The notes beneath the pieces were generated by a model that worked only from the letters and a program-made list of their open reading frames with translations, did not search any database and was not told the origin of the DNA. From Methanobacteriota archaeon (GTDB lineage Archaea; Thermoplasmatota; Poseidoniia; Poseidoniales; Poseidoniaceae): a stretch of DNA of 61,833 nt. The stretch is taken from the NCBI GenBank assembly GCA_002722135.1, contig PBKJ01000013.1:34212-96044 (forward strand). Direction: 5' to 3'. Shown here in pieces: positions 8,655 through 35,347 of this stretch. The first letter of the stretch is position 1, and each line of letters starts with the position of its first letter. The position numbers were made by a program, and so were the translations under genes.

Positions 8655-8747
8655 GAACAGCGCATGCTCACATCACCTTAGAACTCGCGGCCGAAGTGGG
8701 TCTGCTGTAACCATCCGCTTCATAAGACCGGGCTTGGACCAAGACCC

Positions 8748-9494
8748 ATGGCCGGCGGACTGCTTGACGTCAAAGGCCTCCACGCCACCGTGGAAGAGAC
8801 CGAAATCCTTCGCGGGGTTGACTTGACCATCAATGCCGGCGAGGTTCATGCCATCATGGGCCTCAACGGCGCAGGGAAATCCACCCTCGCTTCGGTCATC
8901 ATGGGCCACCCGGACTACGAAATCACGGAGGGGAGCGTCCACTACGACGGCCAGGATTTGACCGAACTCGAAGTTCACGAGCGGGCCCGCTCCGGTCTCT
9001 TTCTGTCCTTCCAGTACCCGCACGCCATTCCCGGTGTCCAAGTCGGTACCTTCCTGCGGAAGTCCGTCGCCGCCGTGCGCGGCGAAGCCCCGAAGGCTCG
9101 CGCCTTCAGGCAGGAACTCCAAGCGGCCATGGACGTTCTTGGCATGGACCGGTCCTTCCTGAGCCGTTACGTCAACGACGGGTTCAGTGGCGGCGAGAAG
9201 AAGCGACTGGAAATCCTCCAGATGCTGCTCCTCCAACCACGGATGGCCCTTCTGGACGAAACCGATTCCGGACTGGACATTGACGCGTTGAAGGCCGTCG
9301 CTCAAGGCATCAACAGCCTCTCCAAAGATAGCGGCGTGCTGCTGATCACCCACTACAACCGCCTGCTCGAATTGGTGGTCCCTGACGTGGTTCACGTGAT
9401 GATCGACGGGCGCATCATCCAGAGCGGTGGCCCAGAATTGGCGCAACGGCTTGAAGCGGACGGTTATGAGTGGCTGATGCCTGCCACGGCATGA
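8748..9494 (+). CDS. sufC: SufC, Fe-S assembly ATPase
   Basis: 248-residue ABC-type ATPase of the SufBCD scaffold. It is cytosolic and supplies ATP hydrolysis for iron entry and cluster assembly. Walker A is GLNGAGKS (residues ~39-46), the signature region is FSGGEKKRLEI, and Walker B is ALLDETDSGLD with the SufC-specific D-E-T-D. Length equals the family norm. The ATG at 8748 is the first gene of the plus-strand suf operon. A weak CATAAG box about 25 bases upstream would make the transcript nearly leaderless (low confidence). The stop is 9 bases before sufB. Confidence 0.95.
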   Translation: MAGGLLDVKGLHATVEETEILRGVDLTINAGEVHAIMGLNGAGKSTLASVIMGHPDYEITEGSVHYDGQDLTELEVHERARSGLFLSFQYPHAIPGVQVGTFLRKSVAAVRGEAPKARAFRQELQAAMDVLGMDRSFLSRYVNDGFSGGEKKRLEILQMLLLQPRMALLDETDSGLDIDALKAVAQGINSLSKDSGVLLITHYNRLLELVVPDVVHVMIDGRIIQSGGPELAQRLEADGYEWLMPATA

Positions 9495-9503
9495 GGTGAG
9501 CAC

Positions 9504-10910
9504 ATGAGCGACGAAGCAAGGGACGCGGTCGGCGAGTACCGCTACGGTTTCCACGACCCCGAAGTGGCCACCATCCGCTTTGACAAGGGCCTCAGCGAAC
9601 AGGTCGTCCGCGACATCTCCGCGCTCAAGAACGAGCCCGAGTGGATGACTGAACTCAGGGTCAAGGCCTACCATCACTTCGTCGAGCGACCGATGCCCGA
9701 CTGGGGCAACGAATCCCTGCTCAACAGCATCGACTTCGAAGCCGTCACCTACTTCCTGCGGTCCTCTGAAGGAACCGAGCGCGACTGGGACGATGTTCCA
9801 GAGGACATCAAGCGCACTTTTGACCGGCTCGGCATCCCCGACGCCGAACAGAAGTGGCTCGGAGGCGTGACCGCCCAGTACGAATCCGAGGCGGTCTACC
9901 ACAGCATCCGCGAGGACCTTGAAGCCCAAGGCGTCCTTTTCCTTGACATGGATTCTGGCCTTCGTGAACATCCCGAGATCGTCAAGCGTTTCTTCAACAC
10001 CGTCATCCCCTACACGGACAACAAATTCAGTGCCCTCAACACCGCAGTGTGGTCCGGTGGCTCGTTCATTTACGTCCCCAAGGGCGTTCACGTTGAAATG
10101 CCCGTCCAGGCCTATTTCCGCATCAACGCGAAGAACATGGGGCAATTCGAACGCACGCTCATCATCGCCGATGAGGGGTCCTCCATCCACTACGTTGAAG
10201 GCTGCACAGCACCGACGTACTCCACCGATTCACTGCACTCTGCTGTGGTCGAACTCGTGGCCATGGACGGAGCAAAAATCCGGTATTCGACCATCCAGAA
10301 CTGGTCCTCGAACGTCTACAACCTCGTGACCAAGCGCGGTGTTGCTCACGCCAACGCCACGGTGGAGTGGGTGGACGGAAACATCGGCTCGAAATTGACG
10401 ATGAAATATCCCGCCGTGATCCTGAAGGGTGAAGGTGCCCATGCAGAAATCATCTCCGTGGCCTACGCCGGAGAAGGCCAGCACCAAGATGCGGGATCGA
10501 AGGTGCACCACCTCGCCCCCCGCACAACCTCCAACATCCTGTCGAAATCCATCTCGAAGAACGGCGGCCGCTCCACCTACCGCGGCATGTTGCAGGTGCG
10601 CCCGAAGGCGGAGGGTTGCCGCTCAAAGGTGGTTTGTGACGCCCTCATGCTCGACGCGGACAGCCGCAGCGACACCTACCCAACGATGGAAGTCGGCAAC
10701 GCCTCCGCCGACCTTGAGCACGAAGCCTCCGTTTCCAAGATTGCAGGCGACCAACTCTTCTACCTCATGAGCCGAGGTCACACCGAGGCTGAAGCGATGG
10801 GCCTCATCGTGAACGGCTTCTTTGAGCCCTTTACCCGCGAACTTCCCATGGAATACGCTTCGGAACTCAACAAGCTCCTCGAGATCGAGATGGAGGGAGC
10901 CATCGGATGA
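9504..10910 (+). CDS. sufB: SufB, Fe-S cluster scaffold protein
   Basis: 468 residues, full length for SufB. It forms the scaffold with SufD and SufC on which the nascent Fe-S cluster is built. Recognisable family blocks are [46 protein letters not shown] (the Cys region used for sulfur transfer), RKVSK-type replaced by [10 protein letters not shown], and YRGMLQV near the C-terminus, followed by the SufB/D C-terminal helix ending [29 protein letters not shown] ribosome-binding sequence lies just before the ATG. The gene overlaps sufD by four bases (ATGA). Confidence 0.95.
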
Positions 10911-11980
10911 GCACCGCGATGGAGGACCCCTCCAGCGCGGTCCATCTCTGGCGCTCAACGCCTTGGTCGTGGATGCGACCCGAAGACGCCGACAGCACGG
11001 CCGTCCGCATGGTGCTCCATGACGCCGCCGGCAGTGTGTCCCTAAACGAGGGGAGTCCCGATCTCTTTCCTGTCGTGGTCGATGGGCCTGAAACGACCCT
11101 TCCGGACGTGGACGACATCGCCCGGCACACCTTGGCCGACCTCGACACCGCTCCCATGCACCTCAGCCTGGAAGGACACCACGAGGAGGTCGTCAACGTC
11201 GATCTTCGGGCGGCCGGCCACGTGGCCGTTGGCCGCTTGCACATCACCTGCAAAGGACAGGCCGTCGTTCACCTGCACCTTTCAGGCGACGCGGGCTGGT
11301 GCGGGCTCCACCTCACTGGGAAGGTCGCCAACGGCAGCCACCTCAGCGTGGTCGTGACCGACGAACTTCACCTCGAATCCCGCGTGGTGCGCTGCGACGA
11401 TTGGCGCGTTGGTCGCGATGCGACCTTCGAAACGGGCACCTTGTCGGTCGGAGGCTTCCGAAGGAAGTCCGACCTCCGCCACCACCTCGACGCGACCGGA
11501 GGGAACGTTCGCATCGGGTTGGCGGTCCATGGCCAGGGCACCCGTCATGACGACCACCACGTCGAGATTCACCATCACGTGGGCCACACCTCCTCGTCCC
11601 TTGTCGCCAACGTCGCATGCGGTGGACGCAGCCGCAGCGTCGGCACCGGGCGCTTGGTCATCGACGCCGGTGCCGACGGCACCGACGCCGGCCAGGTGTT
11701 CCGCAACCTGCTGTTGAGTCAGGGTGCGCGTGCTGACGCGATCCCTGAACTCGAGGTCCTGGCCGATGACGTCTCGGCCGCACACGGTGCGGCCAGCGCA
11801 AGCCTCGACGAGGAACAGCTCCACTACCTGATGAGCCGTGGATTGGGCCCGGAAGAGGCAGCCGCGATGATCGTCGAAGGCTTCCTTGCCGACGCGTTCC
11901 GTCCCATCGCTGCAGCGGAGGCAAGGCGTACGCTCCGCGACCGGCTTACGGTTCACCTGGATTGTGCCCGCATCACCTGA
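10907..11980 (+). CDS. sufD: SufD-like Fe-S scaffold subunit
   Basis: 357 residues, homologous in its C-terminal half to SufB (beta-helix region plus helices: [44 protein letters not shown]). The N-terminal half is divergent and short, as in other SufD proteins. It would form the SufB-SufD heterodimer contacted by SufC. A conserved-looking His sits in [11 protein letters not shown], the region where SufD His contributes to cluster formation in the E. coli protein (family knowledge). The start overlaps the sufB stop (ATGA) and sufS follows after 9 bases. Confidence 0.9.
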
Positions 11981-20456: not shown

Positions 20457-22148
20457 ATGAACGGGCGGACCTTCGCCGGCGGTGTGGCGCTGATGCTGTT
20501 CAGTGCCCTTTTCCTCGGCATGGCTGCGCCTGGCCTCGATCCCGGCCACTTGGAGGCAGGTCAAGCGCATCCAGATTGGACGTCCGGCCGTGACGATGAC
20601 GATTTTTGCGAGCAGTTTGAGGACGACGAAACGCAGTGCAATCAATATCCACAATGCGAATGGGAAGCCGAAGACGACGATGACGCAGAACCCGGCGAGG
20701 GGGATTGCGAAGAAGCCGAAGACGATGATGACGACGACGACGACGATGATGACGACGACGACGATGACGACGACGACGACGATGACGACGACGACGATGA
20801 CGACGACGACGATAACGGCGGCGGCACCCCCGGAAACGGAGGTGGCGGTGGAGGCTCCAGCGACGTGGACACCGACAACGACGGAACGAACGACAATCTC
20901 GACGACGACGACGACAACGATGGCGTGAACGACAACGCCGATGCCTTCCCCCTCGATGCAAACGAAACGACCGACAGCGACAACGACGGCGTGGGCGACA
21001 ACGCCGACAACGACGATGACAACGACGGCGTGGTGGACGACAACGACGCTTACCCAAACGACCCGAATGAGCAATACAACTTCGACGGCGATAGCGTCGG
21101 AGACAACGCAGACACGGACGACGACAACGACGGCGTTGAAGACGCCTATGACGCCTTTCCTTACGACGCCACGGAGTGGTCGGACCACGACGGTGATGGC
21201 CTCGGCGACAACGCCGACCGGGACGACGACAACGACGGCGTGGCCGATGATCAGGACGCCTTCCCTCTGGATCCGAACGAATCCAACGATGCCGATGGAG
21301 ATGGGGTCGGGGACAACGCCGACAACGACGATGACAACGACGGCGTCAACGACGATGAAGACCAGACGTTTGACAACGAGAACGTGCAAAGGTCGGATCA
21401 CGACGGTGATGGCTACCCCGACGATGAGGACCTGGACGACGACAACGACGGCGTCAACGACGAACTCGATGCCTTCCCGAAAGACCCGTCCGAGACCGCC
21501 AATTTCGACGGCGATGCGGTCGGTGACAACGCGGACACCGACGATGACAACGACGGTGTGCTCGATGAGAACGACGCCTTCCCCTTCAACGCAAGTGAAT
21601 GGTCGGACAACGACTTGGACGGCATCGGCGACAACGCGGACACCGATGATGACAACGACGGCATCCTTGACCAAGACGACGATTTCCCGCGTGATGCAAC
21701 CTACAGCGAAGACCACGACGGAGACGGAATGGCAGACTCGGTGGACCTTGACGACGACAACGACGGTACGCCGGACATCATCGACGCCTTCCCTCTCAAC
21801 GCCTCTGAGAGCTCGGATTACGACGGTGATGGCATCGGTGACAACCGAGACATGGACGACGACAATGACGGTTTCCTCGACGTCTTCGACCGCTATCCAA
21901 GGTTCGCTGGGATCCCCAGCAGCGAGGAACAGGCCGGGGAGGATGGCTCGAACGTGGACGCCCCACAGGGCGAGCAAAGCATGACGTTGAACGCGTCGAA
22001 CCTGATTGTCCTCCTGCTTCTGTCTTCGACGATCAGCATCAGCCTCGTGTTGCTTGCCCAACGCTTCCTGAAGACCAACTCAACCACGCGTCCAGAAGAC
22101 AAGCAAGCCGTGGACATCAACGAAGAGAACCAAGAGGTGGAAGCATGA
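20457..22148 (+). CDS. Asp-rich thrombospondin-3-like surface protein with C-terminal anchor
   Basis: 563 residues. An N-terminal signal peptide (~1-24, hydrophobic ALMLFSALFLGMAA) is followed by an acidic Cys-containing segment, a run of 31 consecutive Asp (residues 89-119), a Gly-rich linker, and about 14 calcium-binding-type repeats of the form DxDxDGxxDNxD (~140-480). A C-terminal membrane segment (~520-545) is followed by a short charged tail. It should be exposed outside the cell and bind many Ca ions. The next gene overlaps its stop (ATGA). The exact length of the Asp run may vary between strains because it is coded by a simple repeat. Confidence 0.9.
   Translation: MNGRTFAGGVALMLFSALFLGMAAPGLDPGHLEAGQAHPDWTSGRDDDDFCEQFEDDETQCNQYPQCEWEAEDDDDAEPGEGDCEEAEDDDDDDDDDDDDDDDDDDDDDDDDDDDDDDDNGGGTPGNGGGGGGSSDVDTDNDGTNDNLDDDDDNDGVNDNADAFPLDANETTDSDNDGVGDNADNDDDNDGVVDDNDAYPNDPNEQYNFDGDSVGDNADTDDDNDGVEDAYDAFPYDATEWSDHDGDGLGDNADRDDDNDGVADDQDAFPLDPNESNDADGDGVGDNADNDDDNDGVNDDEDQTFDNENVQRSDHDGDGYPDDEDLDDDNDGVNDELDAFPKDPSETANFDGDAVGDNADTDDDNDGVLDENDAFPFNASEWSDNDLDGIGDNADTDDDNDGILDQDDDFPRDATYSEDHDGDGMADSVDLDDDNDGTPDIIDAFPLNASESSDYDGDGIGDNRDMDDDNDGFLDVFDRYPRFAGIPSSEEQAGEDGSNVDAPQGEQSMTLNASNLIVLLLLSSTISISLVLLAQRFLKTNSTTRPEDKQAVDINEENQEVEA
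20721..20813 (+). repeat. GAC/GAT trinucleotide tract coding 31 Asp
   Basis: Ninety-three bases consisting only of GAC and GAT codons. The mixture of the two codons is irregular, so the tract is less slippery than a pure triplet repeat. It is a likely site of length variation and of assembly error. Confidence 0.95.
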
Positions 22149-24521: not shown

Positions 24522-24667
24522 GAACCAACCTTGCTGTCGCAAACAAAGAGACTACGGCAACGCTCGCGATACCGGATTGATTTCGTAAGTGTAGAGGGAT
24601 AATTTTCGGCAGCAATTATTTGTGTCCTCGTAGTGTCGGTCACCTCATTCGCGTCGGGGGCGACATT

Positions 24668-25186
24668 GTGATTCAACTGGTATCATTGAAGGATGCTGGT
24701 TTGGTCCTCTCTGCAAACTCACGTGTTCTGATCATTGGCACCATAGGATCTGGAAAATCATATGCCACGAGGCACCTGGCTCAGCAGAATGAGGCCATTA
24801 TGGTCTACTCTATCGATGATTTTCGTAGGGAGTGTATGGCCTCGTCAGAATCTGGAGAGGCAGCTGCTCGGCAAAAGTTTCTCCTCGCTTGCACTGAACA
24901 AGACGGGATTTTCGAATTCACTGGTGCGGGCCCTCTCCACGAACCAGTTATGCAGGCTGCAACAAAAAATCCGTTCGATTTCATCCTCCGTGTGCACACA
25001 CCCACTCAAGTTTGTATGGAACGTGTGGCCTTTCGGCGTGACTGGCCCCCCTACCCAACTAACATCATGCCAGATTCAGATCTCATCAATGCCATTTCCA
25101 ATGAACTGGATCGGCACGGCTTCGACAGACAATCATCGGATTGGAACGGCCAGCTGCTTCTGCATGTCTCGGGAGTGATGGAATGA
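24668..25186 (+). CDS. Small P-loop kinase or NTPase
   Basis: 172 residues from a GTG at 24668 preceded by GGGGG; the frame is open a little further upstream without an ATG. Walker A is GTIGSGKS (24-31), followed by YSIDDFRRE at about residue 50, whose Asp-Asp sits where nucleoside- and shikimate-kinase-like enzymes hold a catalytic acid. A lid-like Arg segment appears in VAFRRDWPPYPTN. The substrate is unknown; phosphorylation of a sugar, cyclitol or nucleoside would fit the pathway. It is the first gene of the island operon and its stop overlaps the next start (ATGA). Confidence 0.7.
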   Translation: MIQLVSLKDAGLVLSANSRVLIIGTIGSGKSYATRHLAQQNEAIMVYSIDDFRRECMASSESGEAAARQKFLLACTEQDGIFEFTGAGPLHEPVMQAATKNPFDFILRVHTPTQVCMERVAFRRDWPPYPTNIMPDSDLINAISNELDRHGFDRQSSDWNGQLLLHVSGVME

Positions 25187-26592
25187 ACCAGCAATCCATC
25201 ATTGAATCCATCCGCACATGGGCAACAGGTTACACTCATGTCCGTTCTGCTTTCTTGTTGGGATCGCAGGCTCGTGGGGATGCCAATGGCCTTTCGGATG
25301 TGGACATCGTGATCGAAACATCCGCCAAACCGAGGTCTGTGCTCCGCCAACTCCAACGGTTGCTTCCCGTCGAATACCATCAATTGTGGGCAGATGGCAA
25401 ACTCGTCCTTTGGGTCGGCCCTACACAAACCAAAGTTGACTGCTGGGTTGTTGATGATGCAACGCAATCCGCAAAGTACTACTGGGGTTCCAATCCATCG
25501 AAATTCGATGATTGGATTTTGATTGATCATGAAAACAACTTGGAGGAGCGGCTCCTCAAAACGCATCCAACGGCAACCAAATACCAAGACGTCGGTTGGT
25601 TGAACCATCGATTCGTCAATCAACTCGAGGCAGCATCGAAACATCATGCACGTAGTGACACATTCAGGTACATGTTCGCCATGCAAATCGCTTACGACGC
25701 TCTCATCAGGCTCGCATGCCATGTTGCGGGAGTTACTGATTCCCTTTTTCTGCCAAAGGCGGGCCACAGGGTGCTGGACCGTTTGTTGCCGGAATGGACT
25801 TCAGATCGTTTCGGAACGACGGGAAATCTTCGTACCGCAAACGAGCGCAAGCACAACCTGCTCGACTGTTGGAAAGACCTGCATGAATTGGCAATTAAGA
25901 GGGGCTTTTACTTGGGTGATTACGAGGAAGGATTGAGGTTCCTCGAGAGAATCATGGCACGAGACCACTTCTGGAACTTCCGGGACTTGCTGGATGGCAC
26001 CACGACACCCTCTCTCAGAGGCCGGTTGTTTCGCGGGGCATGCCTTGTACCCCACCTTGGTGAATCTGCACTCGATGAGTTGCTCCAATCATCTGGAATC
26101 AAGTGGATTGTTGACCTACGGCGAGAGGAAGAACGAGACCAACGACCCTATCCTGATGACTTTCCGGTCCAGGTCCATCACTGCCCTACGTGGTATACCT
26201 CTGAGCGCCCAGAGGCGTGGCCGCAAAGGCGATCTGAGTTGGACAACGATTACCCCGGTGTTCTGATGAGTATGGCTCCCCATGTGCCACTCATCCTCAA
26301 ACTCATCGCCTCAGGAGAGATTGGATACATTCACTGCCACGCTGGAAGGGACCGAACAGGCGTCATCTGTGCCCTTGTTCTTCGCATATTGGGGCATTCC
26401 AGGCACGACCTACGGCATTCGTACGGCCTCTCCTCCGACGCAGACATGGAAGCGTTCGACGTCATCCTTAGCTGGTTTGATGATGAAGAGAAATTTCGAT
26501 GCTTACTTGCTGACCTTGGCGTCAATGAATCATTGATGACAGGGGTGCGCAATGCCATGCAAACCGAAATCGTACAGGAGGTCCCAACTTGA
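25183..26592 (+). CDS. Nucleotidyltransferase-protein tyrosine phosphatase fusion
   Basis: 469 residues. The N-terminal domain has the minimal nucleotidyltransferase signature GSQARGDANGLSDVD (27-41), with a third acidic residue at D86 in TKVDCWVV. A helical middle domain (~105-270) resembles the HEPN-like or C-terminal helical bundle of antibiotic nucleotidyltransferases. The C-terminal third is a tyrosine or dual-specificity phosphatase: LFRGACLVP, IVDLRREEER, and the P-loop HCHAGRDRTGV with C385 and R391 (CX5R). I know of no standard family with this architecture. It could add and remove nucleotidyl or phosphoryl groups on the pathway intermediate, or protect the host from the product. The start overlaps the kinase stop. 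Confidence 0.8.
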   Translation: MNQQSIIESIRTWATGYTHVRSAFLLGSQARGDANGLSDVDIVIETSAKPRSVLRQLQRLLPVEYHQLWADGKLVLWVGPTQTKVDCWVVDDATQSAKYYWGSNPSKFDDWILIDHENNLEERLLKTHPTATKYQDVGWLNHRFVNQLEAASKHHARSDTFRYMFAMQIAYDALIRLACHVAGVTDSLFLPKAGHRVLDRLLPEWTSDRFGTTGNLRTANERKHNLLDCWKDLHELAIKRGFYLGDYEEGLRFLERIMARDHFWNFRDLLDGTTTPSLRGRLFRGACLVPHLGESALDELLQSSGIKWIVDLRREEERDQRPYPDDFPVQVHHCPTWYTSERPEAWPQRRSELDNDYPGVLMSMAPHVPLILKLIASGEIGYIHCHAGRDRTGVICALVLRILGHSRHDLRHSYGLSSDADMEAFDVILSWFDDEEKFRCLLADLGVNESLMTGVRNAMQTEIVQEVPT

Positions 26593-27527
26593 CTGCCCAT
26601 ATCCTTATCACTGGAGCAGCAGGACTCATTGGAACCGCCGCCCGAGCTCATTTCGAATCATCGGGATGGTATGTTTCCACGCTCGACCTCAAAGCCGAGG
26701 ATTTAGACGGAAGGGGAATTGATTTTGTTGGCGACATCGTTGAATTTGATGGATTGAGCGATGCCCTCAACGGCGTGGACGGTGTGCTCCATCTGGCCGC
26801 AGTTTCAAGAGTAATCGACGCTGAGTTGGATAAAGCAGAGTGCACGAGAGTGAACGTTTTCGGCACTTCTCGTCTGCTGAAGGAGGCTTCATTGGCGGGA
26901 TGCAAGTGGTTCATTTTTGGCAGCAGTCGGGAAGTCTACGGCGAACCCACCTCTTTCCCGGTGAAGGAAGAGGAGGGAGTTGCCCCAATCAACCACTACG
27001 GACATGCGAAAGTGGAAGGAGAGCGAATGGTCCGCCATCACTGTGAACGGAACGGGATGGTCCATTCGAATCTCAGGTTCTCCAACGTCTACGGCCACCC
27101 GGGAGATCACCCGACCAGATTAATCAACGCATTCTTGCGAAATGCGCTGAAATCTGAGCCACTCGAAATCCATGGTGGGGGTCAGGTTTTCGACTTTACC
27201 CATCTCGACGATACGGTCACAGCAATTTTGAACGCGGCTAAAAAACTGCACGAGGAGCGAATTCCTCTCCCGCCAATCCACATACTCCCCGGAACGCCTG
27301 TTTCAATTGAAGATCTTGCACGTCATGTCTTGGAAATCACCGGTAGCCAATCCAATGTGGTTTACACCAAAGGCCGTGACTACGATGTTGAGCGGTTTCA
27401 CGGCGACCCGAGTAGGCTCCGGGACCTGCTCGGTCATGAGTGCAAGGTCGACATCCGCACTGGTTTGGAGCAGAGCGCAGCCCTTTTTCGAAAGCATTTG
27501 GCAACCAAGGGTCGTGGTGTTGAATGA
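26589..27527 (+). CDS. NAD-dependent epimerase/dehydratase (extended SDR)
   Basis: 312 residues. The N-terminal Rossmann motif is GAAGLIG (9-15). The catalytic triad region reads FGSSREVYGE and then YGHAK (YxxxK), the extended SDR pattern used on nucleotide sugars. The C-terminal half (SNVYGHPGD, then VFDFTHLDDTV) is typical of UDP-glucose 4-epimerase or dTDP-glucose dehydratase relatives. It probably makes a modified NDP-sugar for the glycosyltransferase encoded next. The start is a TTG overlapping the previous stop (TTGA), supported by a perfect AGGAGGT six to seven bases upstream. Confidence 0.88.
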   Translation: MTAHILITGAAGLIGTAARAHFESSGWYVSTLDLKAEDLDGRGIDFVGDIVEFDGLSDALNGVDGVLHLAAVSRVIDAELDKAECTRVNVFGTSRLLKEASLAGCKWFIFGSSREVYGEPTSFPVKEEEGVAPINHYGHAKVEGERMVRHHCERNGMVHSNLRFSNVYGHPGDHPTRLINAFLRNALKSEPLEIHGGGQVFDFTHLDDTVTAILNAAKKLHEERIPLPPIHILPGTPVSIEDLARHVLEITGSQSNVVYTKGRDYDVERFHGDPSRLRDLLGHECKVDIRTGLEQSAALFRKHLATKGRGVE

Positions 27528-28831
27528 AGGTGTTGCTGGTCATTCACGGATACCCTCGCAGGTACAATGCAGGATCGGAGGTGTATACTCAAACGCTCGC
27601 CCATGCCTTGAACGATGCTGGCTGCGAAGTCGAGGTGTTTGCCAGAGAGGAGGACCCGTTCCTCCCAGATTATCATCTGAGAACAGAGCATGATCCGGTC
27701 GAATCTGAGATTTCGGTTCATTTGGTCAACCATGCGAGATCCAATGCGCGGTTCCAGAACGACATCATCGATGACGTGTTCAGAAGCCTGATGTCTAAGG
27801 TGAACCCTGATATCGTTCATTTCGGCCACTTGAATCACCTATCGATGGGGCTACCTAGAGTGGCGAAGGCCATGGGGGCATCGACGGTGTTCACACTCCA
27901 CGACTTCTGGTTGATGTGCCCCAGAGGCCAGTTCCTGCAATGGGGATTGACGGCACATGAGCCTTGGGCACTCTGCGATGGTCAAGAAGATGCGAAGTGC
28001 GCAGCGAAATGTTTCAACCGATTCGTCGAAGGATTCGACGAGGAGCTGGAACTCCGACATTGGGAGCAATGGGTTTCCACCAGAATGCAAGCAAGTCGCT
28101 TGGCGTGTGATGCCATCGACCGCTTTCTCGCACCTTCGAAACGGCTGATGGAGCGACACGTGGATGAGTTTGGCATCGATGCATCGAGCGTTGAATATCT
28201 CGACTATGGTTTCGACCTAAGCCGATTGGGAGGGCGCTCTCGTGCGCAAGAATCATCCTTCGTCTTTGGATACATCGGGCGACATCATCCTTCGAAGGGC
28301 ATTCATGATCTCATCGATGCATTCTGTGGGTTGGAAGGGGAACCAATCTTGAGAATCTGGGGACGTCCTCAGGGGCAATTGACCCAATCACTCAAGCGTC
28401 GCGCAGCCTCATCTCGCGTTGAAACAGACAGAATCGAGTGGTTGCCTGAATACAACAATGAGAACATCGTTAAGGAAGTCTTCAATCGATGCGACTGCAT
28501 CGTTGTGCCCTCGATCTGGGATGAGAATTCACCCCTCGTCATTCATGAGGCTCAGCAATGCGGCGTGCCGGTGATCACAGCAGAACACGGTGGGATGGGA
28601 GAATACGTTCAGAATGGCGTCAACGGCCTGACGTTCACTCATCGAGACGCAGAGGACCTTCGTTCCTCGATGCAGAACGCACTTGACAACCCGGAACATT
28701 TGGCTCAATTGGGTCACAAAGGATACTTGCATTCCGAAGACGGTCAGATTCCATCCAACAAAGCCCACGCAGCAGCAATCCTCCATCGCTATGAACAACT
28801 GATTTCAACGAAAGTGGAAGTGATGAATTGA
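27524..28831 (+). CDS. GT4-type glycosyltransferase
   Basis: 435 residues, GT-B fold. The N-terminal domain begins with MKVLLVIHGYPRRYNAGSEV (acceptor side) and has FTLHDFWLMCPRG, a frequent GT4 motif. The C-terminal donor domain has FGYIGRHHPSKGIHDLI and the EX7E block DENSPLVIHEA, then GVPVITAEHGGMGEYV, which binds the NDP-sugar. There are no membrane segments, so it acts in the cytosol. It starts on the stop of the epimerase gene (ATGA), pointing to use of the epimerase product as donor. Several Cys around 150-180 (LCDGQEDAKCAAKCF) are unusual and might bind metal. Confidence 0.9.
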   Translation: MKVLLVIHGYPRRYNAGSEVYTQTLAHALNDAGCEVEVFAREEDPFLPDYHLRTEHDPVESEISVHLVNHARSNARFQNDIIDDVFRSLMSKVNPDIVHFGHLNHLSMGLPRVAKAMGASTVFTLHDFWLMCPRGQFLQWGLTAHEPWALCDGQEDAKCAAKCFNRFVEGFDEELELRHWEQWVSTRMQASRLACDAIDRFLAPSKRLMERHVDEFGIDASSVEYLDYGFDLSRLGGRSRAQESSFVFGYIGRHHPSKGIHDLIDAFCGLEGEPILRIWGRPQGQLTQSLKRRAASSRVETDRIEWLPEYNNENIVKEVFNRCDCIVVPSIWDENSPLVIHEAQQCGVPVITAEHGGMGEYVQNGVNGLTFTHRDAEDLRSSMQNALDNPEHLAQLGHKGYLHSEDGQIPSNKAHAAAILHRYEQLISTKVEVMN

Positions 28832-29889
28832 CCCTCGCAGGAGACCACCCAATGACGCTTGAGCATCTGACCGCCCCATGGCGAATCACGTTCGACACCA
28901 ACCCCGATGATTGCAACCTGAACTGCGTGATGTGTGAGGAACATTCGCCCTACAGCCCATCCCACCAGGCTCGTGTGAATGGCGAATTGGAGTACAGGCG
29001 CATGGACATCGAGACAATCGAGCGGGTCATTGCCGAGTGCGCATCCAAAGGTCTACGAGAGATTATTCCCTCCACAATGGGCGAGCCGCTGATATACAAG
29101 CACATGCCGAGGATTATCGAATTGTGTCATGAGCATCGAGTGAAATTAAATCTGACCACGAACGGTACTTTTCCTCGATTGGGGGCTGAAAAATGGGCCC
29201 AGCTTATCGTACCGATTGGGTCGGATGTGAAGTTCAGCTGGAACGGTGCCAACCAAAGCGCACAGAGCCTCGTGATGGTCAACAACGACTTTGAGAAGAA
29301 CATGCGAGACCTCCGCACCTTCATTGGCGTGAGGGATGCACATGCAGCAGATGGTGGCAATTACTGTTCAGTGACGCTGCAGATGACATTCATGGAAATG
29401 AACTTGCAGCAAGTCCCCAAGGTGGTTGAACTCGCAATTCGAGAAGGTGTTGACCGGGTGAAGGGGCATCATCTCTGGGCTCACTTTGCCGAAATCAAAG
29501 ATCAAAACATGAGACGGAACCGAGACGCAATACTCCGTTGGAACACCATCGCAAGGGAGTCCATTAAAATCGCCAACGAGAATCCACTCCCGAATGGGAA
29601 GAGGATTGTTCTCGCCAACATTTACGAGTTGGATCCAGACCACGGCGGAGAGCTGCATCCTGCTGCGACATGCCCCTTCCTTGGTCAAGAAGCATGGGTG
29701 AACCATGAAGGACGATTCGACCCATGCTGTTCACCCGATGAGTTGCGACAAACGCTAGGCTCCTTTGGCAATGTGGAGGATGACGGTTTGATGGCGATCT
29801 GGCAGAGTGCCAAGTATCGGGACCTGATTGAGAACTATCTCGAGAGCGATGTCTGCCGCCAATGTAACATGAGGCAGATGCCGGGGTGA
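28828..29889 (+). CDS. Radical SAM enzyme with SPASM/twitch-like C-terminus
   Basis: 353 residues from a TTG at 28828 that overlaps the previous stop (TTGA, GGAAGTGAT upstream), or 345 from an ATG at 28852 with AGGAG upstream. The radical SAM motif CNLNCVMC (CxxxCxxC, C29/C33/C36 from the TTG) binds the 4Fe-4S cluster; STMGEPL and LTTNGT are the SAM- and barrel-contact blocks. The C-terminal cysteines (ATCPFLGQ, DPCCSPD, CRQCNM) resemble a SPASM or twitch auxiliary-cluster domain. Relatives oxidise or epimerise sugars and cyclitols (BtrN, NeoN) or mature peptides. With no peptide gene nearby, a small-molecule substrate is favoured. Confidence 0.87.
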   Translation: MTLAGDHPMTLEHLTAPWRITFDTNPDDCNLNCVMCEEHSPYSPSHQARVNGELEYRRMDIETIERVIAECASKGLREIIPSTMGEPLIYKHMPRIIELCHEHRVKLNLTTNGTFPRLGAEKWAQLIVPIGSDVKFSWNGANQSAQSLVMVNNDFEKNMRDLRTFIGVRDAHAADGGNYCSVTLQMTFMEMNLQQVPKVVELAIREGVDRVKGHHLWAHFAEIKDQNMRRNRDAILRWNTIARESIKIANENPLPNGKRIVLANIYELDPDHGGELHPAATCPFLGQEAWVNHEGRFDPCCSPDELRQTLGSFGNVEDDGLMAIWQSAKYRDLIENYLESDVCRQCNMRQMPG

Positions 29890-29893
29890 AACA

Positions 29894-31480
29894 ATGGCCA
29901 ATCTCCCACGACCTTCGGATTGCGGCACATTCCACATCAGCTCCGAAGGTGAAGGAATCTATACGATGAGATTCGATTGGGTTTTGCCGTTCCACGAACC
30001 CAGCCTTGCTCCTGTCGGAGACGATACGGGAGCGTACCACATCCATCTCGACGGAAAACCAGCTTACGAACAAAGGTTTGATCGCACTTTTGGGTTCTAT
30101 GGCGGTTTTGCTGCAGTCATTTTTGAGGGCACATGGTTCCATATCACAGCTGACGGGAAGAGAGCATACCCAAAATCCTGGAATTGGTGCGGAAACTTCC
30201 AGCAGAACCGATGTACGGTCAGAACTGCCGATGGCCATTATCACCACATTAGGCCCGACGGTTCCATGCTCAATGGAGGTCCACATTCGTACGCAGGCGA
30301 CTTCCGTGAGGGCTCGGGGGTCGTTCGCGGGATGGATGGCATGTGTTGGCACATCGACAAGGAGGGCGCACCGATTCATGATTCGAAATTCCTCGACCTC
30401 GATGTCTTCCACAAGGGATTCGCCAGAGCAAGGGACAGGCGCGGATGGCATCACATTGATCGTGCGGGAAAGGACATCTCCGAAGGCAAAAGATATGCTG
30501 AACTCGAACCGTTCTATAATGGTCAAGCACTCGCTCGCTCGCTCACAGGTGAATATGTTGTCATCAATGAGTTTGGTGAAATCAAAAACCGGCCGCTACG
30601 TCCTGATACTGATATTGAGGTTGAATTCCAGAGAATCGCCGTATCCTACTGGAAGCCTATTGCGATTCGATTGGGGATTCTCGCAGGGCTCGCGGGAGGA
30701 CATCCTGAACTTGAAATCACGTCTGAAGACAAGATGGTCCTGCAACAAGCATGGATGGAACTCGGATTGTTGGGGGTCCAGATGGATTTGACTCAATCTG
30801 GTGAACTACTAGCGCAAGACGAGAGATGGCGGGATCGATTTCTCTACTGGACTGGTCCACAGTTCAAGGCATGGGTTGAGGCGGAGAATCGCTTGATGCA
30901 TGTGGAGAAGAGGTCTGAATTCTTCATCGAACAATCAAAGGACCCAAAGATGGCGAACTTGATTCACAGGGTTCTTGATTCGTACGCCAACGACGATTGG
31001 AGGGGAATCTCTTCTGAATTGCAACTGTCCCCAAGTGATGTTGTGGTGGATATAGGTGGGGGCAAAGGTGCCCTTCTGGAGGAGATTGGTGACTCAGTAT
31101 CGGCCCGGGTTCTCGTGGACCTACCAGAGGTCATCGATTTAGTGAACTTCACAGAAATTGAGACAGTGTCTGCTGACATTTTCTCTGATGAGATTCCAAC
31201 CGGTGATGTGTATCTCATGTCACGAATCCTGCACGATTGGGGTGATTCGAAGTGCATCGAATTGCTGTACCGCATCCCAAAGACCGCTCGATTAATCATC
31301 ATCGATCGAATCGCTGAACCAGAGAAGCATGGCTTGCTCAGCCTGAACATGCTCTTGCTGACCGGCGGTAGAGAGAGAACACATTCTGAATGGATGGCGA
31401 TATTCTCTGAAGCGGGTTGGAGTTTGACGGCGCAATCCACTTGGGCAAGTCATGCAATCATGCACTTGGAGGCTTGCTGA
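29894..31480 (+). CDS. WG-repeat protein fused to O-methyltransferase
   Basis: 528 residues. The N-terminal ~225 residues consist of about seven degenerate 40-residue WG-type repeats with a recurrent xYHIxxDGxxxY...RFD...F...A pattern (YHIHLDGKPAYEQRFD, WFHITADGKRAY, HHIRPDG, WHIDKEG, WHHIDRAGK). A helical linker and dimerisation-like region (~240-370) precede a SAM-dependent O-methyltransferase domain of the Methyltransf_2 class: VVVDIGGGKG from 383, LVDLPEVI, and SRILHDWGD with the presumed base H447. It probably methylates a hydroxyl of the pathway product, with the repeats acting as a docking or carbohydrate-binding platform. The ATG lies four bases after the radical SAM stop. Confidence 0.83.
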   Translation: MANLPRPSDCGTFHISSEGEGIYTMRFDWVLPFHEPSLAPVGDDTGAYHIHLDGKPAYEQRFDRTFGFYGGFAAVIFEGTWFHITADGKRAYPKSWNWCGNFQQNRCTVRTADGHYHHIRPDGSMLNGGPHSYAGDFREGSGVVRGMDGMCWHIDKEGAPIHDSKFLDLDVFHKGFARARDRRGWHHIDRAGKDISEGKRYAELEPFYNGQALARSLTGEYVVINEFGEIKNRPLRPDTDIEVEFQRIAVSYWKPIAIRLGILAGLAGGHPELEITSEDKMVLQQAWMELGLLGVQMDLTQSGELLAQDERWRDRFLYWTGPQFKAWVEAENRLMHVEKRSEFFIEQSKDPKMANLIHRVLDSYANDDWRGISSELQLSPSDVVVDIGGGKGALLEEIGDSVSARVLVDLPEVIDLVNFTEIETVSADIFSDEIPTGDVYLMSRILHDWGDSKCIELLYRIPKTARLIIIDRIAEPEKHGLLSLNMLLLTGGRERTHSEWMAIFSEAGWSLTAQSTWASHAIMHLEAC

Positions 31481-32071
31481 ATGGAATTCTCATTCAAACG
31501 ATTCTCGCCATCTTGCCAGTTACCAGATGTTGGTTTACTCGTCCTAAGGCATGGCCCCAGAAGCGGAGGCAAGTTCCCTCGTGAAAGTGAGCCTCTCTCA
31601 ACAGAAGGGGCTGAATCGGTGACGCAATTAGCGCTGAAGTGGAAAAACTTCTCGCGCCCGAATCGTCTTGTTTCGAGCCCTTTGGAACGCTGCCTGGAGA
31701 CTGCGGAGATTCTGAACACAGTCTGCGATTGGAATCAACGAATAGTTGAATCGAGGTTGCTTGGAGGGCACGGGGCATTTGTTGTTGACTCCAGAGCCCT
31801 TGGGAGCCAACTGTCGAGGCTTTCTGACAGCGAGGGCCGGAATCTGTTCATTTCTCACATGAGAGGAGAGGATGTCGCAGGCATGCGGGATTTAGCCGAA
31901 GGCTCGAAATTGATTCTCGATGAACTGTATCCGGCCTCCAAAACAGAACTCGTTATCGCCATTTCACATGAGACGATCATTGCAGCTTTGGGTGCTTATC
32001 TTGGCGATGACCCGACGAAATGGCCCGAACCTATGTCGGGAGTTCATGTTGTAAGGAAGGATGAGTCATGA
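31481..32071 (+). CDS. Histidine phosphatase (phosphoglycerate-mutase-like)
   Basis: 196 residues. The phospho-acceptor motif LVLRHGPRSGG has R23 and H24, with SSPLERCLETAEIL as the second conserved block and AISHETIIAALG containing the second catalytic His. It is short, like SixA/CobC-type members, and probably removes phosphate from a small-molecule intermediate. It begins directly after the methyltransferase stop (TGA-ATG) and overlaps the dioxygenase start (ATGA). It gives the operon a second phosphatase in addition to the tyrosine-phosphatase domain. Confidence 0.83.
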   Translation: MEFSFKRFSPSCQLPDVGLLVLRHGPRSGGKFPRESEPLSTEGAESVTQLALKWKNFSRPNRLVSSPLERCLETAEILNTVCDWNQRIVESRLLGGHGAFVVDSRALGSQLSRLSDSEGRNLFISHMRGEDVAGMRDLAEGSKLILDELYPASKTELVIAISHETIIAALGAYLGDDPTKWPEPMSGVHVVRKDES

Positions 32072-33027
32072 AAGAAATGAACCAGTTGAGGGAAGCTGGA
32101 TTCGTCATGGTCCCCTCAAAGCTCGACGTGGAGACGGCCACCCACTGGGTGAGGAGGATAGAAGAATCGCTCCCGAACCTTGCGAATCAAGTGGGTTGCA
32201 GCTTAGATGAGTATCTGATGTCTGTGTCTGCCTGGAGCGGGAAAAATCCCCTCGTGCATGAATTCGCTGAGGTACTTCGAAGTGACATCACCTCCACTGT
32301 CGAAGCAATCACTGGAGGACAGATTGAACTCTTGGAATCAAAACTGCTCATGAAGGGAGAGAACTGTCCTTGGGCAACACATGCTCACCAAGATATTGCG
32401 TATCGTTGGCAGGGAAAGAGGCAGCAATACCAGTTTTCAACCTGGCTTTCCTTGTCAACCATCGGACCGATGCAAGCTCCGCTTGAGTTTCTTCCAAAAT
32501 CTCACCTCGAGCCCGTTTCAGAATACCAAGATTATCTTGATCCAGAGTTCGTTGATCGTAAGGATACCCAAGAATGGAAGAAGAAGCATCAATCCATTGT
32601 GATGAACCCGGGAGACATGGTCATCTTCGATTCCCGTGTTTGGCATGCTTCCTCCGAATGGGCCGCGCCGCCTCGAAGATATGCCATGGTTATGCGATGG
32701 ATTGTTGCTGGTATCAAAGACACAGAGGTTCCATCGCCGAGAGGGGAGCGAAGATGGATGTATGATTTCTCAACATGGCTCGAACAATCTCTTCAGAAGT
32801 TTACTGATGAGAAGTCACAACCATCGGAATCAAGTTTGGAGGTTGCAATCGGGTTGGATTCGATATCGGCTGAACTCAGGAGTTTGCTTCAACGATACAG
32901 GATCAACCGTGCGGCAGGGATACACCATGGGGGCACTGCTCAGCGAGGTATGTTATGGGGCCCTCTGGCAGAAGCGGTCAGAGCAGAACTTCGAGCCCGG
33001 GACGTGGACGCAGTAGCGCTCCCATAG
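32068..33027 (+). CDS. PhyH-family Fe(II)/2-oxoglutarate dioxygenase
   Basis: 319 residues with a phytanoyl-CoA dioxygenase-like jelly roll. The metal triad is H107 and D109 (THAHQDIAY) with H193 (DSRVWHASS), and R203 or R204 in PPRRYAMVMRW would bind 2-oxoglutarate. All key residues are present, so it should be active. Family members hydroxylate natural products, sugars and lipids. It is the last gene of the operon and overlaps the phosphatase stop (ATGA). The C-terminal ~100 residues (after WMYDFSTWL) extend beyond the usual PhyH core. The coding sequence ends 40 bases before tRNA-Ala. Confidence 0.87.
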   Translation: MKEMNQLREAGFVMVPSKLDVETATHWVRRIEESLPNLANQVGCSLDEYLMSVSAWSGKNPLVHEFAEVLRSDITSTVEAITGGQIELLESKLLMKGENCPWATHAHQDIAYRWQGKRQQYQFSTWLSLSTIGPMQAPLEFLPKSHLEPVSEYQDYLDPEFVDRKDTQEWKKKHQSIVMNPGDMVIFDSRVWHASSEWAAPPRRYAMVMRWIVAGIKDTEVPSPRGERRWMYDFSTWLEQSLQKFTDEKSQPSESSLEVAIGLDSISAELRSLLQRYRINRAAGIHHGGTAQRGMLWGPLAEAVRAELRARDVDAVALP

Positions 33028-33066
33028 CGACGCCCTCCGGTTCGGGATATGACGCATGAGTAGGAG

Positions 33067-33139
33067 TGGACGCTGGGGGATTTGAACCCCCGGCCTTCTG
33101 GTTGCAAACCAGACGCTCTTCCAACTGAGCTAAGCGCCC
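33067..33139 (-). tRNA. tRNA-Ala (anticodon UGC)
   Basis: The minus strand folds as a complete 73-base cloverleaf: acceptor GGGCGCT paired with AGCGTCC, which includes the G3-U70 pair diagnostic of alanine tRNAs; D arm GCTC/GAGC; anticodon arm TCTGG/CCAGA with loop TTTGCAA (anticodon TGC); T arm GGGGG/CCCCC with TTCAAAT; discriminator A73. No CCA is encoded and no intron is seen. It marks the right edge of the low-G+C island. Confidence 0.97.
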
Positions 33140-33227: not shown

Positions 33228-33920
33228 TCACGCAATGAGCGAGATGTTGGCCTTGAACATCACGACCGTCACGTCCACGGTGATCTCCTCGTCCGTGTCT
33301 TGTCCGATCGGGTCAATCCCGAGTGGAGAATTGACGTCGAGGTCAAGCTCCACCAGGAGCACGCCATCGCCCCAGCCGTCTTGCAGCCAATGCTGCATGG
33401 CTTGGTATTCGTTGGACGCAGAGATGGTGGCAGAGCGACCGTCAAAGTCAGGGTACACCTGCAACGCGAGGTCGATCGGTTGGCAACTGCTGTCTTGTCC
33501 AGAAAGGCTGCTCATCGGGCTGTTCCATTGCGCCGTCAAGCCGTTTTCGATGAGGTCGCCGGCCACAGAATCGCATTGGACGGAGATGCCTTCCTCCTCT
33601 TCAGACGTGATGGTGACGTTGATCGAACCCACGGCGTACCCCTCCGGAACGGTGACCTCAGCCATGTCAAACTCCAGGATCCTGGTCTCGTCGTCCTGCA
33701 GGGTTTCGACGGCCTGCATGGTGTAGGTTTGAACCTCAAAGGTGAGGGCCCATTCAGGGGTTTCCGAGGTGAACGTGTCGGTGGCCTGCAGGTCGCCGAC
33801 GAAGTCCACCATGGTCACCGTCATCATCACCAACGTGACGAGCAACGCCACGGCGGTCGGGACGCGCGATTCGCGCGTCACCAGCAAACTGCGCGAGGTG
33901 ATGGCCTCGTCCGAACTCAT
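33228..33920 (-). CDS. Membrane-anchored extracellular protein, unknown
   Basis: 230 residues. A short cytosolic N-terminus, one membrane segment (about 22-43, VPTAVALLVTLVMMTVTMV) and an acidic beta-rich extracellular domain with two Cys (VQCDSV, DSSCQPI) that may form a disulfide. The domain looks like a pilin-type or flagellin-type anchored protein (type IV pilin-like membrane segment starting after SRVPTAV), but the processing motif is not clear. Its start overlaps the stop of the polytopic membrane protein upstream (ATGA), so they are co-translated. Confidence 0.75.
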   Translation of the reverse strand: MSSDEAITSRSLLVTRESRVPTAVALLVTLVMMTVTMVDFVGDLQATDTFTSETPEWALTFEVQTYTMQAVETLQDDETRILEFDMAEVTVPEGYAVGSINVTITSEEEEGISVQCDSVAGDLIENGLTAQWNSPMSSLSGQDSSCQPIDLALQVYPDFDGRSATISASNEYQAMQHWLQDGWGDGVLLVELDLDVNSPLGIDPIGQDTDEEITVDVTVVMFKANISLIA

Positions 33921-35254
33921 CCCAACACCCCCAAACCGGTGAAGAGCAGCGAGACAATGAGGATGAAGACCGTCACCCCTCCGAAGACGAGGTTGAACAA
34001 GCGAGGCGAGGCAAAGTCATGTTCGATTTCGGGCAACGCGAAGTCAGGGACCGTTTCTTGGATGGAGGATGAATCGTCGATGAGGCTGTTCACAATGCGC
34101 TCTTCCCACCCGATGAAAATGCCCACCACGATGGCCAGCGCTGCGGAGGAAATCATGTCGGGGATGGGAAGGAAGGACTGAATGAGTTCGAGAATGGTCG
34201 AGGACACGATGAGCAGCATCAAGATGACGATGATCCGGATCAGCCACCGGTTTTCATCACGCTTGGTGTCCACGATGTCGTAGTGCAAGAGGATGAACAT
34301 GAACAAAATGGGCGTGTAAAGGTACACGAGCGCCTCCGAAGTGAAATCGTACCAGATGGTGTACGCGACCGGGAAGGCCTCACACTGTGTCTGGTAGCAG
34401 CTGCGCACCACGTCGAGGACGGCCACGTCGGCCAAACCCGCAACGAAGCCGATGATGAAGATGACAAAGGTCAGCACGCCGAAGGGGGAAAGGCCGACTT
34501 TGAACGACCGCCACGCCTCACCCGTGCACAACACCAGCATGGCCGTGGCTCCGAGGGTCAGCCGGGTGTTGATGCCGCCCCACGCAGCGGCTGAGATGCT
34601 CAAGCCGCTCTGAATGGATTGACGCTGGAAGAACAGGTCGTTGATCGAAAGCACCTGCGACAGCCAGTAGGTCATGGTCTCGCCGTGAATGCCGATGAGC
34701 AACAGGCCCACCACAACAGAAATTTTCCTGAGGCGTTCATCGCTGTCGCGAACTTCCGTGGTGATGAAGCGAATGTACATCGAAATCAGCACAACATAAC
34801 CTGGGATGAACAGGAAATTCTCCACCTGAAAGTGCTCGAAATTGGTCATCAGGTGCATGGCGGTAAACGCCGCACAGGCCACACACACGCCCGCGAGCAG
34901 GAACCAGAGGTCCCACTCCCTGTTGATGATGCGGAAGGGGAAGAAAAACGGAAGCAGCACCATCAGCATGTACGCCGAGGACAAAAGGAGGTTCTTGGCC
35001 GTGAACGCGAAGGTGCCTCCGACCTTGTCACGGTTCACGGCAGAGAAATCCGCCAGTGCCCCATAGCGGAATTCAAGGATGGAGGTCATGATGTAACTCA
35101 GTCCGAGGAACACCAGGATCCAACCGAGGACGCACCCGACGATCCTGTTGTTGGTTGAGGCGCCTTGACTCCTGGAGATGATGGACAGCGTGGCGATGCC
35201 CAACACGAGGTCCACCACCGCAGCGATGGGAACCATGGACTCGATTTCCACCAT
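33917..35254 (-). CDS. Polytopic membrane protein, unknown
   Basis: 445 residues with about eleven hydrophobic segments spread over the whole length and short loops, plus a cytosolic acidic insertion near 385-415 (SSSIQETVPDFALPEIEHDF). No transporter signature is recognised. The frame extends seven codons further to a TTG, but the ATG at 35254 is preferred. It overlaps the start of the anchored extracellular protein (ATGA), so the pair probably forms a membrane complex. Confidence 0.78.
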   Translation of the reverse strand: MVEIESMVPIAAVVDLVLGIATLSIISRSQGASTNNRIVGCVLGWILVFLGLSYIMTSILEFRYGALADFSAVNRDKVGGTFAFTAKNLLLSSAYMLMVLLPFFFPFRIINREWDLWFLLAGVCVACAAFTAMHLMTNFEHFQVENFLFIPGYVVLISMYIRFITTEVRDSDERLRKISVVVGLLLIGIHGETMTYWLSQVLSINDLFFQRQSIQSGLSISAAAWGGINTRLTLGATAMLVLCTGEAWRSFKVGLSPFGVLTFVIFIIGFVAGLADVAVLDVVRSCYQTQCEAFPVAYTIWYDFTSEALVYLYTPILFMFILLHYDIVDTKRDENRWLIRIIVILMLLIVSSTILELIQSFLPIPDMISSAALAIVVGIFIGWEERIVNSLIDDSSSIQETVPDFALPEIEHDFASPRLFNLVFGGVTVFILIVSLLFTGLGVLG

Positions 35255-35347
35255 GCTGGGGAGTGAACCCTTCAACTCATAGCCGTTCCGTCGAAGGGGA
35301 ACAAGGGCGGCACAAATTCCTGCGAATCGGCAACGGGCGATGTCGCA

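Follow-up and report, generated by a model that had tools for sequence, protein, structure and literature searches.

An archaeal operon that joins a kinase, a nucleotidyltransferase-phosphatase, an epimerase, a glycosyltransferase, a radical SAM enzyme, an O-methyltransferase, a histidine phosphatase and a dioxygenase raises the question of what such a set of enzymes makes and whether it belongs to a known system. The operon lies on the + strand of the window, by which we mean the whole stretch of 61,833 nt that was analysed, and comprises eight intact, tightly coupled open reading frames.

The operon and its genomic island

The features are as follows (UC and WD numbers denote Undecim cluster genes of phage WO):

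24573..33065, no strand: horizontally acquired block (genomic island) of exactly the eight genes, 3' of tRNA-Ala; edges from same-genus comparison
24668..25186, +: P-loop small-molecule kinase (AAA_33-like); Pfam, family alignment
25183..26592, +: MNT/lincosamide-type nucleotidyltransferase fused to a DSP-type phosphatase (Y_phosphatase3); Pfam, PDB profiles
26589..27527, +: extended SDR, NAD-dependent sugar-nucleotide epimerase/dehydratase type; UC2/WD0612 homologue, 42% identity
27524..28831, +: GT4 glycosyltransferase; homologue of the N-terminal half of UC3/WD0613, 48% identity
28828..29889, +: radical SAM enzyme with a C-terminal single-cluster (twitch/SPASM-type) domain; homologue of the C-terminal half of UC3/WD0613, 54% identity
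29894..31480, +: six-repeat WG propeller domain (29894-30589) fused to a Methyltransf_2 O-methyltransferase; UC4/WD0614 homologue, 30% identity over 537 aa
31481..32071, +: histidine phosphatase (branch 1); Pfam
32068..33027, +: PhyH-type Fe(II)/2-oxoglutarate dioxygenase; UC5/WD0615 homologue, 27% identity, HQD...H...R residues present
33066..33139, -: tRNA-Ala(TGC), whose 3' end is the right boundary of the island

The list of open reading frames and the Pfam matches bore out the initial annotation in its gene families, its overlaps or gaps of at most 4 nt and its single operon. Neighbouring genes overlap by four bases at 25183, 26589, 27524, 28828 and 32068, a 4-nt gap precedes 29894, and the genes abut directly at 31481. 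The low G+C content was likewise found, at 0.50-0.53 versus 0.56-0.66 in the flanking genes. Pfam cut-offs were passed by NTase and Y_phosphatase3, Epimerase, GT4, Radical_SAM and SPASM, Methyltransf_2, His_Phos_1 and PhyH. The WG repeat (24.9 against a cut-off of 25.6) and the P-loop kinase (22.9 against 27) scored slightly under, and the identity of each was backed by conserved relatives. The kinase probably starts at the GTG at 24668, which was preferred over an upstream TTG (that at 24620 is possible) because homology in the kinase family begins near 24707.

Catalytic motifs were intact in the operon genes, with no sign of the inactivating mutations in most members that would have told against a working pathway. 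The kinase keeps its P-loop, D37 and E-F-x-G-x-G in alignment with five Asgard cluster kinases. The nucleotidyltransferase-phosphatase, whose PDB profile matches were MNT, lincosamide nucleotidyltransferase, DSP1/Siw14 and PtpB, shares G27, D39-x-D41 and HC-x-x-G-x-DRTG across 8 fusions, and the RH motif and second His of the histidine phosphatase are kept in its cluster homologues. In GT4 the EX7E motif (E334/E342) and a Cys cluster (C132/C151/C159/C163) are conserved; GT4 and the SDR scored well under every functional equivalog cut-off. The radical SAM protein has CX3CX2C at C29/C33/C36 and, invariant in 29 sequences, C282, C300, C343 and C346, and this auxiliary-cluster spacing (C-x17-C-x42-C-x2-C; Pfam SPASM 43.5 bits) is of the SPASM/twitch type.

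The block was horizontally acquired. Same-genus genomes retain both flanks and are devoid of the eight genes. In one of them (G112) homology on the left ends at window position 24572, with an identity of 98% in the neighbouring 3.6 kb, as far as 24363, and 90% in the last 226 nt; on the right it ends at the tRNA 3' end, 33065, an edge also seen in G200. The island carries neither an integrase nor a long flanking repeat, and a search for att repeats at its ends gave a longest shared word of at most 10 nt. The initial annotation had named neither the tRNA-Ala at the end of the block nor a tRNA-bounded island.

A shared core with exchangeable genes

When the nucleotidyltransferase-phosphatase was the sole query, there was no match in viral contigs, in phages or in the 193 further genomes searched within the order, and plasmids matched its phosphatase domain only. 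The family was uncovered by changing the query to the radical SAM protein. We obtained 29 loci with the radical SAM gene, in Poseidoniales, other Thermoplasmatota, Asgard archaea (12 of the 196 genomes sampled), Bacteroidia, Proteobacteria, a plasmid and phages. Viral contigs gave no match to the single radical SAM or WG-O-methyltransferase protein and two matches to an alignment query. Since the gene set recurs in distant genomes, chance origin is not an issue. The loci share a core of GT4, twitch/SPASM radical SAM and six-repeat WG protein in conserved order, as the initial annotation had asked of other genomes, and both Bacteroidia and Asgard archaea have the entire nucleotidyltransferase-phosphatase fusion. 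The WG protein is present in all 29 loci and GT4 in 28, the exception being truncated by a contig end; in the window the three genes are adjacent. In 13 of the 29 loci GT4 and radical SAM form one open reading frame, as in the Hydrogenophaga locus L012, which makes coupling of the two steps probable, and in 12 WG is fused to the O-methyltransferase.

Around this core the SDR, O-methyltransferase, kinase, nucleotidyltransferase-phosphatase, histidine phosphatase and PhyH genes are exchangeable, and the window has all of them. Elsewhere there are other accessories of sugar chemistry: carbamoyltransferases in two loci (L052, L055) in L050, a protein ending in a UDP-glucose/GDP-mannose dehydrogenase, and in phage WO, UDP-glucose dehydrogenase, a MobA-like NTP transferase and transporters. 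One phage contig (L017) carries only GT4-radical SAM and WG, so that tailoring enzymes are dispensable for the minimal reaction, a point against the pathway proposed below. Loci were associated with phages, plasmids, adjacent serine recombinases, an integrase and a tRNA island. These mobile-element associations, like the core itself, had been missed in the initial annotation, and we found no paper linking WG/KWG with radical SAM.

A clade of all archaeal sequences plus one from a 6-kb gammaproteobacterial MAG contig, which may be misbinned, was not rejected (p 0.39), and thus we claim no direction of interdomain transfer. A single clade was rejected for Thermoplasmatota even with that contig (p 2e-6) and for Asgard archaea (p 3e-35); the sequences support transfer among archaeal phyla.

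Three unrelated phosphatases adjoin the core, namely DSP, histidine phosphatase and HAD (the last in L009), the pattern that a metabolic dephosphorylation step would give. DSP occurs in 12 loci and histidine phosphatase in 9, and only the window has the two together (Fisher two-sided p = 0.04, for loci that are not independent), which is only suggestive of the one standing in for the other. It had been proposed that the nucleotidyltransferase-phosphatase controls the product. This is doubtful: across loci the slot is mostly taken by it or by the unrelated histidine phosphatase, and metabolic dephosphorylation fits such alternation better than regulation.

Product and rival readings

The likeliest product of the operon is a modified sugar compound; the small-molecule or sugar pathway of the initial annotation was still the best reading, in which the architecture is established and the product inferred. 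We consider it rather probable that this is a mobile biosynthetic cluster of GT4/radical SAM/WG type building and tailoring a phosphorylated glycoside, with UC2-UC5 as the other known branch. In a tentative order of steps, the SDR would shape a nucleotide sugar, an acceptor or intermediate would be activated or phosphorylated by the kinase and nucleotidyltransferase, and GT4 would join sugar and acceptor. The attached sugar might then be oxidised, epimerised, deoxygenated or decarboxylated by a radical SAM/twitch enzyme that works like BtrN, DesII or BlsE, while the WG propeller may bind the intermediate on behalf of both GT4 and radical SAM and, through its fusion to the O-methyltransferase, present it for methylation. 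PhyH would hydroxylate the intermediate, and DSP and/or histidine phosphatase would remove phosphate.

The predicted folds bear on this scheme (rows from L019 and L020 were left out of the predictions). The AlphaFold2 model of the radical SAM protein (pLDDT 90.4) matched SuiB, SkfB, BlsE, DesII and BtrN in Foldseek, and BtrN aligned across the twitch region in the profile search; the peptide-modifying enzymes among the best structural matches (SuiB, SkfB, PqqE) speak against the scheme. That of WG-O-methyltransferase (pLDDT 96.2) matched beta-propellers. The residue after the F of the repeat is polar or aromatic and conserved in five of the six WG repeats (H34, Y69, Q103, H173, Y208; the remaining one has R or K at 137), the pattern that one binding pocket would give.

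Decoration of an S-layer, LPS-like or archaeal lipid glycan would be an unlikely alternative, though polysaccharide loci typically contain GT4, SDR and UDP-glucose dehydrogenase, variable islands often carry surface-glycan genes, and Bordenstein and Bordenstein predicted EPS/LPS biosynthesis for UC1-UC3 and UC10 (PMC9203015). However, neither a flippase nor a polymerase, ligase or lipid-carrier transferase could be made out next to the cassette (listed loci by eye; selected neighbours scanned), the core occurs alone in a phage, and hosts with envelopes as different as those of Wolbachia, Asgard archaea, Bacteroidia and Poseidoniales share the cassette.

Still less likely, the WG protein would itself be the substrate, glycosylated by GT4, with radical SAM altering either that glycan or a side chain. 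All loci have WG, even the phage one whose only other component is GT4-radical SAM, it is the more conserved half of WG-O-methyltransferase with invariant Cys107, H173, K174, Y208 and N209, and protein or peptide modifiers are among the radical SAM/SPASM relatives, the best structural matches including SuiB, SkfB and PqqE. The conserved residues, one or two per repeat, nevertheless resemble a pocket and not a single modified site; the fusion partner in 12 loci belongs to a small-molecule methyltransferase family, and the kinase, carbamoyltransferase and UDP-glucose dehydrogenase found as accessories are hard to reconcile with this reading. Nor does the operon look like a RiPP locus: there is no precursor peptide gene near the maturase within the operon, whose junctions leave at most 4 nt, and, as the initial annotation said, neither a peptide precursor nor a transporter is inside the window copy. 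A 2-deoxystreptamine aminoglycoside cluster is not indicated either, 2-deoxy-scyllo-inosose synthase and aminotransferases being absent among the eight genes.

An anti-phage or inter-element conflict system with a nucleotide-like effector, made by nucleotidyltransferase, kinase, phosphatases and a viperin-like radical SAM enzyme, is very improbable: the loci do lie on phages and plasmids, within a tRNA island and adjacent to serine recombinases or an integrase, but PADLOC models gave weak partial matches only (viperin and nucleotidyltransferase models, the best at E 2e-5 on the NTase motif), the core requires neither nucleotidyltransferase nor kinase, and the cluster is constitutively expressed in Wolbachia, as cited in PMC12801941.

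Comparison with known systems

The loci bear on an unexplained gene set of Wolbachia, the Undecim cluster, which shows high expression and duplication in an obligate strain. Our loci separate an irreducible Undecim core (GT4, radical SAM, WG) from exchangeable genes, extend the system beyond symbionts to Asgard archaea, Poseidoniales and other bacteria, and provide non-endosymbiont proteins for expression and assay; the WG-repeat domain is placed in a clear genetic setting and has a fold predicted with confidence. It is possible, somewhat short of probable, that phages, plasmids and tRNA islands spread a pan-domain pathway in which GT4-radical SAM and the WG beta-propeller make a new class of radical-tailored glycosides, Undecim being its endosymbiont branch. 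If so, archaeal and bacterial variants would reveal the core chemistry of a candidate symbiosis factor.

The operon had been called undescribed. This holds in part: the phage WO cluster has been described (PMC9203015), and UC2-UC5 (WD0612-WD0615) are homologues of the window core in the same order. Furthermore, Baldridge et al. noted the WD0614 fusion and homologues in Desulfovibrio hydrothermalis, Haliangium, Capnocytophaga and Saprospira, i.e., WD0612-WD0615 synteny outside endosymbionts as here, in a set of bacteria only, without archaea or analysis of accessory modules (PMC4701759). These published accounts of bacterial and endosymbiont versions do not mention the archaeal one. The order SDR, GT4, radical SAM, WG-O-methyltransferase, PhyH is common to the window, phage WO and an Arsenophonus plasmid, and the Undecim genes, like those of the window, are carried on mobile DNA. 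In the archaeal copy, however, GT4 and radical SAM are unfused, kinase, nucleotidyltransferase-phosphatase and histidine phosphatase are additional, and the last sits between the UC4 and UC5 homologues. Counterparts of UC1 and UC6-UC11 were absent within 24573-33065; of the two, only Undecim has the NTP transferase, ABC transporter, two threonine aldolases, MFS transporter, UDP-glucose dehydrogenase and UC11. Its carriers are prophage WO (Wolbachia WD0611-WD0621), Rickettsia pREIS2, Cardinium and Phycorickettsia. Strictly defined, Undecim would also lie within the eukaryotic association module of prophage WO or an island of WO-like kind; the window copy lies in a tRNA-bounded archaeal chromosomal island and falls outside that definition in both gene content and location. 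A link to the Rickettsia buchneri aminoglycoside cluster was considered and dropped, since that cluster is presented as a distinct one (PMC8770908, PMC9111745).

Among functional models, the top GT4 match was MshA, the D-inositol-3-phosphate glycosyltransferase, at 64 bits against a cut-off of 462.5, which places the window enzyme outside that family. The acceptor of MshA is a phosphorylated cyclitol. The sugar-tailoring matches of the radical SAM protein in profiles and structures, found beside the peptide enzymes, were BtrN (butirosin), BlsE (blasticidin S), DesII and AbmM, with a TM-score of 0.71 on target length for BlsE. They resemble it in overall fold at only 13-17% identity and act in different pathways; unlike them, it is paired with or fused to GT4 and WG.

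Operon genes and the acquired block at tRNA-Ala

All eight open reading frames that the initial annotation had described as a low-G+C operon were found in the window, confirming that observation, and domain profiles bore out the gene families assigned to them. The catalytic motifs were intact in all eight genes, given here in operon order (those of the SDR and PhyH were read from the translated ORFs):

24573-33065: block with the eight-gene operon (genes on the plus strand)
First: kinase, P-loop
Second: nucleotidyltransferase (NTase; GS...DxD) fused to a Y_phosphatase3-type phosphatase (DSP; HCxAGxDRTG)
Third: extended SDR, GxxGxxG and YxxxK
Fourth: glycosyltransferase GT4, EX7E
Fifth: radical SAM/SPASM enzyme, CX3CX2C
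Sixth: WG-repeat protein/O-methyltransferase (OMT), SAM-binding DIGGGKG
Seventh: histidine phosphatase (HisP), RHG
Eighth: PhyH dioxygenase, HQD...H...R

The genes were joined by five four-base overlaps, one direct abutment and one gap of 4 nt, and their G+C content was 0.50-0.53, lower than that of the flanking genes (0.56-0.66). The contig that contains the window is 190 kb long, and the genome 1.94 Mb. On the left flank, the same-genus genome G112 aligned at 98% up to window 24363 and, past a different 5-kb insertion, again as far as 24572. On the right flank, the alignment of G112 and another relative, G200, stopped precisely at 33065, where tRNA-Ala(TGC) has its 3' end; past the tRNA, these two genomes have in common a sequence different from the window's. 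Therefore, 24573-33065 is an acquired block with the operon as its sole content. Neither an integrase nor direct repeats longer than 10 nt were found for this block. In G112 (contig C15, locus L081), the insertion of about 5 kb, which encodes a paralogue of the window's membrane protein (33917-35275), is placed between the sites corresponding to window 24363 and 24347; this region looks like an insertion hot spot. Elsewhere in the window, a plus-strand gene (20457-22148) encodes a protein of 563 aa in which a long poly-Asp tract is accompanied by numerous repeats of the DTDDDNDG type, similar to thrombospondin type-3 repeats.

Distribution, mobility and modular make-up

The radical SAM gene was present in only 2/319 genomes of the host order, and a third genome carried the OMT-HisP end only, at a contig edge. 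The system was present in G199, of the same family as the host. Protein searches found radical SAM relatives in two other Thermoplasmatota families, Gammaproteobacteria, Hydrogenophaga, Bacteroidia, Lokiarchaeota, two IMG/VR contigs, Arsenophonus plasmids and Wolbachia phage WO, and profile searches found them in 6/87 genomes of one Bacteroidia order, 2/251 of the Hydrogenophaga family and 12/196 of the Asgard phylum of locus L015. The gene set recurs as a cassette in other archaea, bacteria, a plasmid and phages.

Domain profiles were run on 29 loci, all with the radical SAM gene; nearly all had been collected by that gene alone, while L010 entered through WG-OMT. WG adjoined radical SAM in 29/29 loci and GT4 in 28/29, the exception, L010, being cut inside the radical SAM gene. 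With nearly all loci gathered via the radical SAM gene, selection does not account for the constant presence of GT4 and WG. GT4 and radical SAM formed a single ORF in 13/29 loci. The OMT was fused to WG in 12/29 and separate in 6/29, the NTase-DSP fusion occurred in 8/29 (L018 has DSP without NTase), the kinase in 6/29, HisP in 12/29 and PhyH in 4/29, in L010 fused ahead of WG-OMT. No locus but the window had every module, or DSP together with HisP; in the other loci these two were mutually exclusive (Fisher p 0.04; loci not independent). Extra genes included carbamoyltransferases (L052, L055) and a HAD phosphatase-methyltransferase (L009). At L050 2875-4992, an N-terminal, probable nucleotidyltransferase (by eye) is fused to a UDP-glucose/GDP-mannose dehydrogenase and adjoins the cassette kinase. 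In the Asgard-phylum locus L055 (691-3223), the core cassette has as neighbours a histidine phosphatase gene, another radical SAM/SPASM gene of divergent sequence, and a gene in which a methyltransferase is fused to a nucleotidyltransferase.

The cassette was carried by prophage WO and an Arsenophonus plasmid. It adjoins a phage integrase in L018 and large serine recombinases in L043 and L045 (L044 looks the same), and in the window it lies 3' of a tRNA. The phage contig L017 has apparent portal and terminase genes (by eye); its cassette (8564-11781), the smallest form seen, consisted of a WG protein and a GT4-radical SAM fusion alone. The plasmid of an Arsenophonus from a bird-parasitic fly (L020, CP132904.1, 3286-14319) carries panB/C/E pantothenate genes, the cassette and an SHMT-like gene. 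L011, a 6-kb contig binned to a gammaproteobacterial MAG, carries a cassette whose radical SAM enzyme is 68% identical to that of the window; this reflects either genuine transfer or the misbinning of archaeal DNA. In the GT4 + radical SAM + WG tree, monophyly was rejected for Asgard archaea (p 3e-35) and for Thermoplasmatota, also when L011 was included (p 2e-6); archaea plus L011 as one clade was not rejected (p 0.39). The operon is a real, mobile and modular system.

Candidate chemistry

The radical SAM enzyme has one auxiliary-cluster motif, C282-x17-C300-x42-C343-x2-C346, invariant across 29 sequences, and a profile search matched the corresponding region of BtrN, a cyclitol dehydrogenase. 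Its AlphaFold2 model (pLDDT 90.4) matched SuiB and SkfB, which act on peptides, and BlsE, DesII, BtrN and AbmM, which act on sugars, cyclitols or nucleosides; since both types were matched, structure alone was indecisive on the substrate. The recurrence of the GT4 fusion argues that the substrate is the GT4 product. Cytosylglucuronic acid is the substrate of BlsE (PMC3715490). The UDP-glucose dehydrogenase and carbamoyltransferase accessories would suit a tailored glycoside product.

The WG domain was modelled with high confidence (pLDDT 96.2) as a small six-repeat propeller, with modest TM-scores (0.4-0.6) to solved propellers. In five repeats, a conserved polar or aromatic residue follows the repeat's F (H34, Y69, Q103, H173, Y208), consistent with a putative single central binding site. 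We infer the order of steps, the product and the role of WG in the pathway.

Comparison with the Undecim cluster

The initial annotation had proposed an undescribed biosynthetic or modification system. This interpretation is partly supported: the system is real and most likely biosynthetic, but "undescribed" holds only in part, as its endosymbiont branch was already known, though unexplained. The Undecim cluster was defined in phage WO, and its relatives occur in Rickettsia, Cardinium and Phycorickettsia (PMC9203015); the fusion of WG to OMT had been pointed out, as had certain bacterial homologues in synteny (PMC4701759). The word "archaea" is absent from the main text of both papers. The function of the cluster was called unknown in a study that found duplicates of most of its genes in an obligate Wolbachia strain (PMC12801941). 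In phage WO, UC2-UC5 (WD0612-WD0615) encode an SDR, a GT4-radical SAM fusion, WG-OMT and PhyH, in the same order as in the window and with identities to the window proteins of 42, 48 + 54, 30 and 27%, respectively. However, UC1 and UC6-UC11 are missing from the archaeal operon, which is thus a homologous, archaeal variant within this family rather than a strict-sense Undecim cluster.
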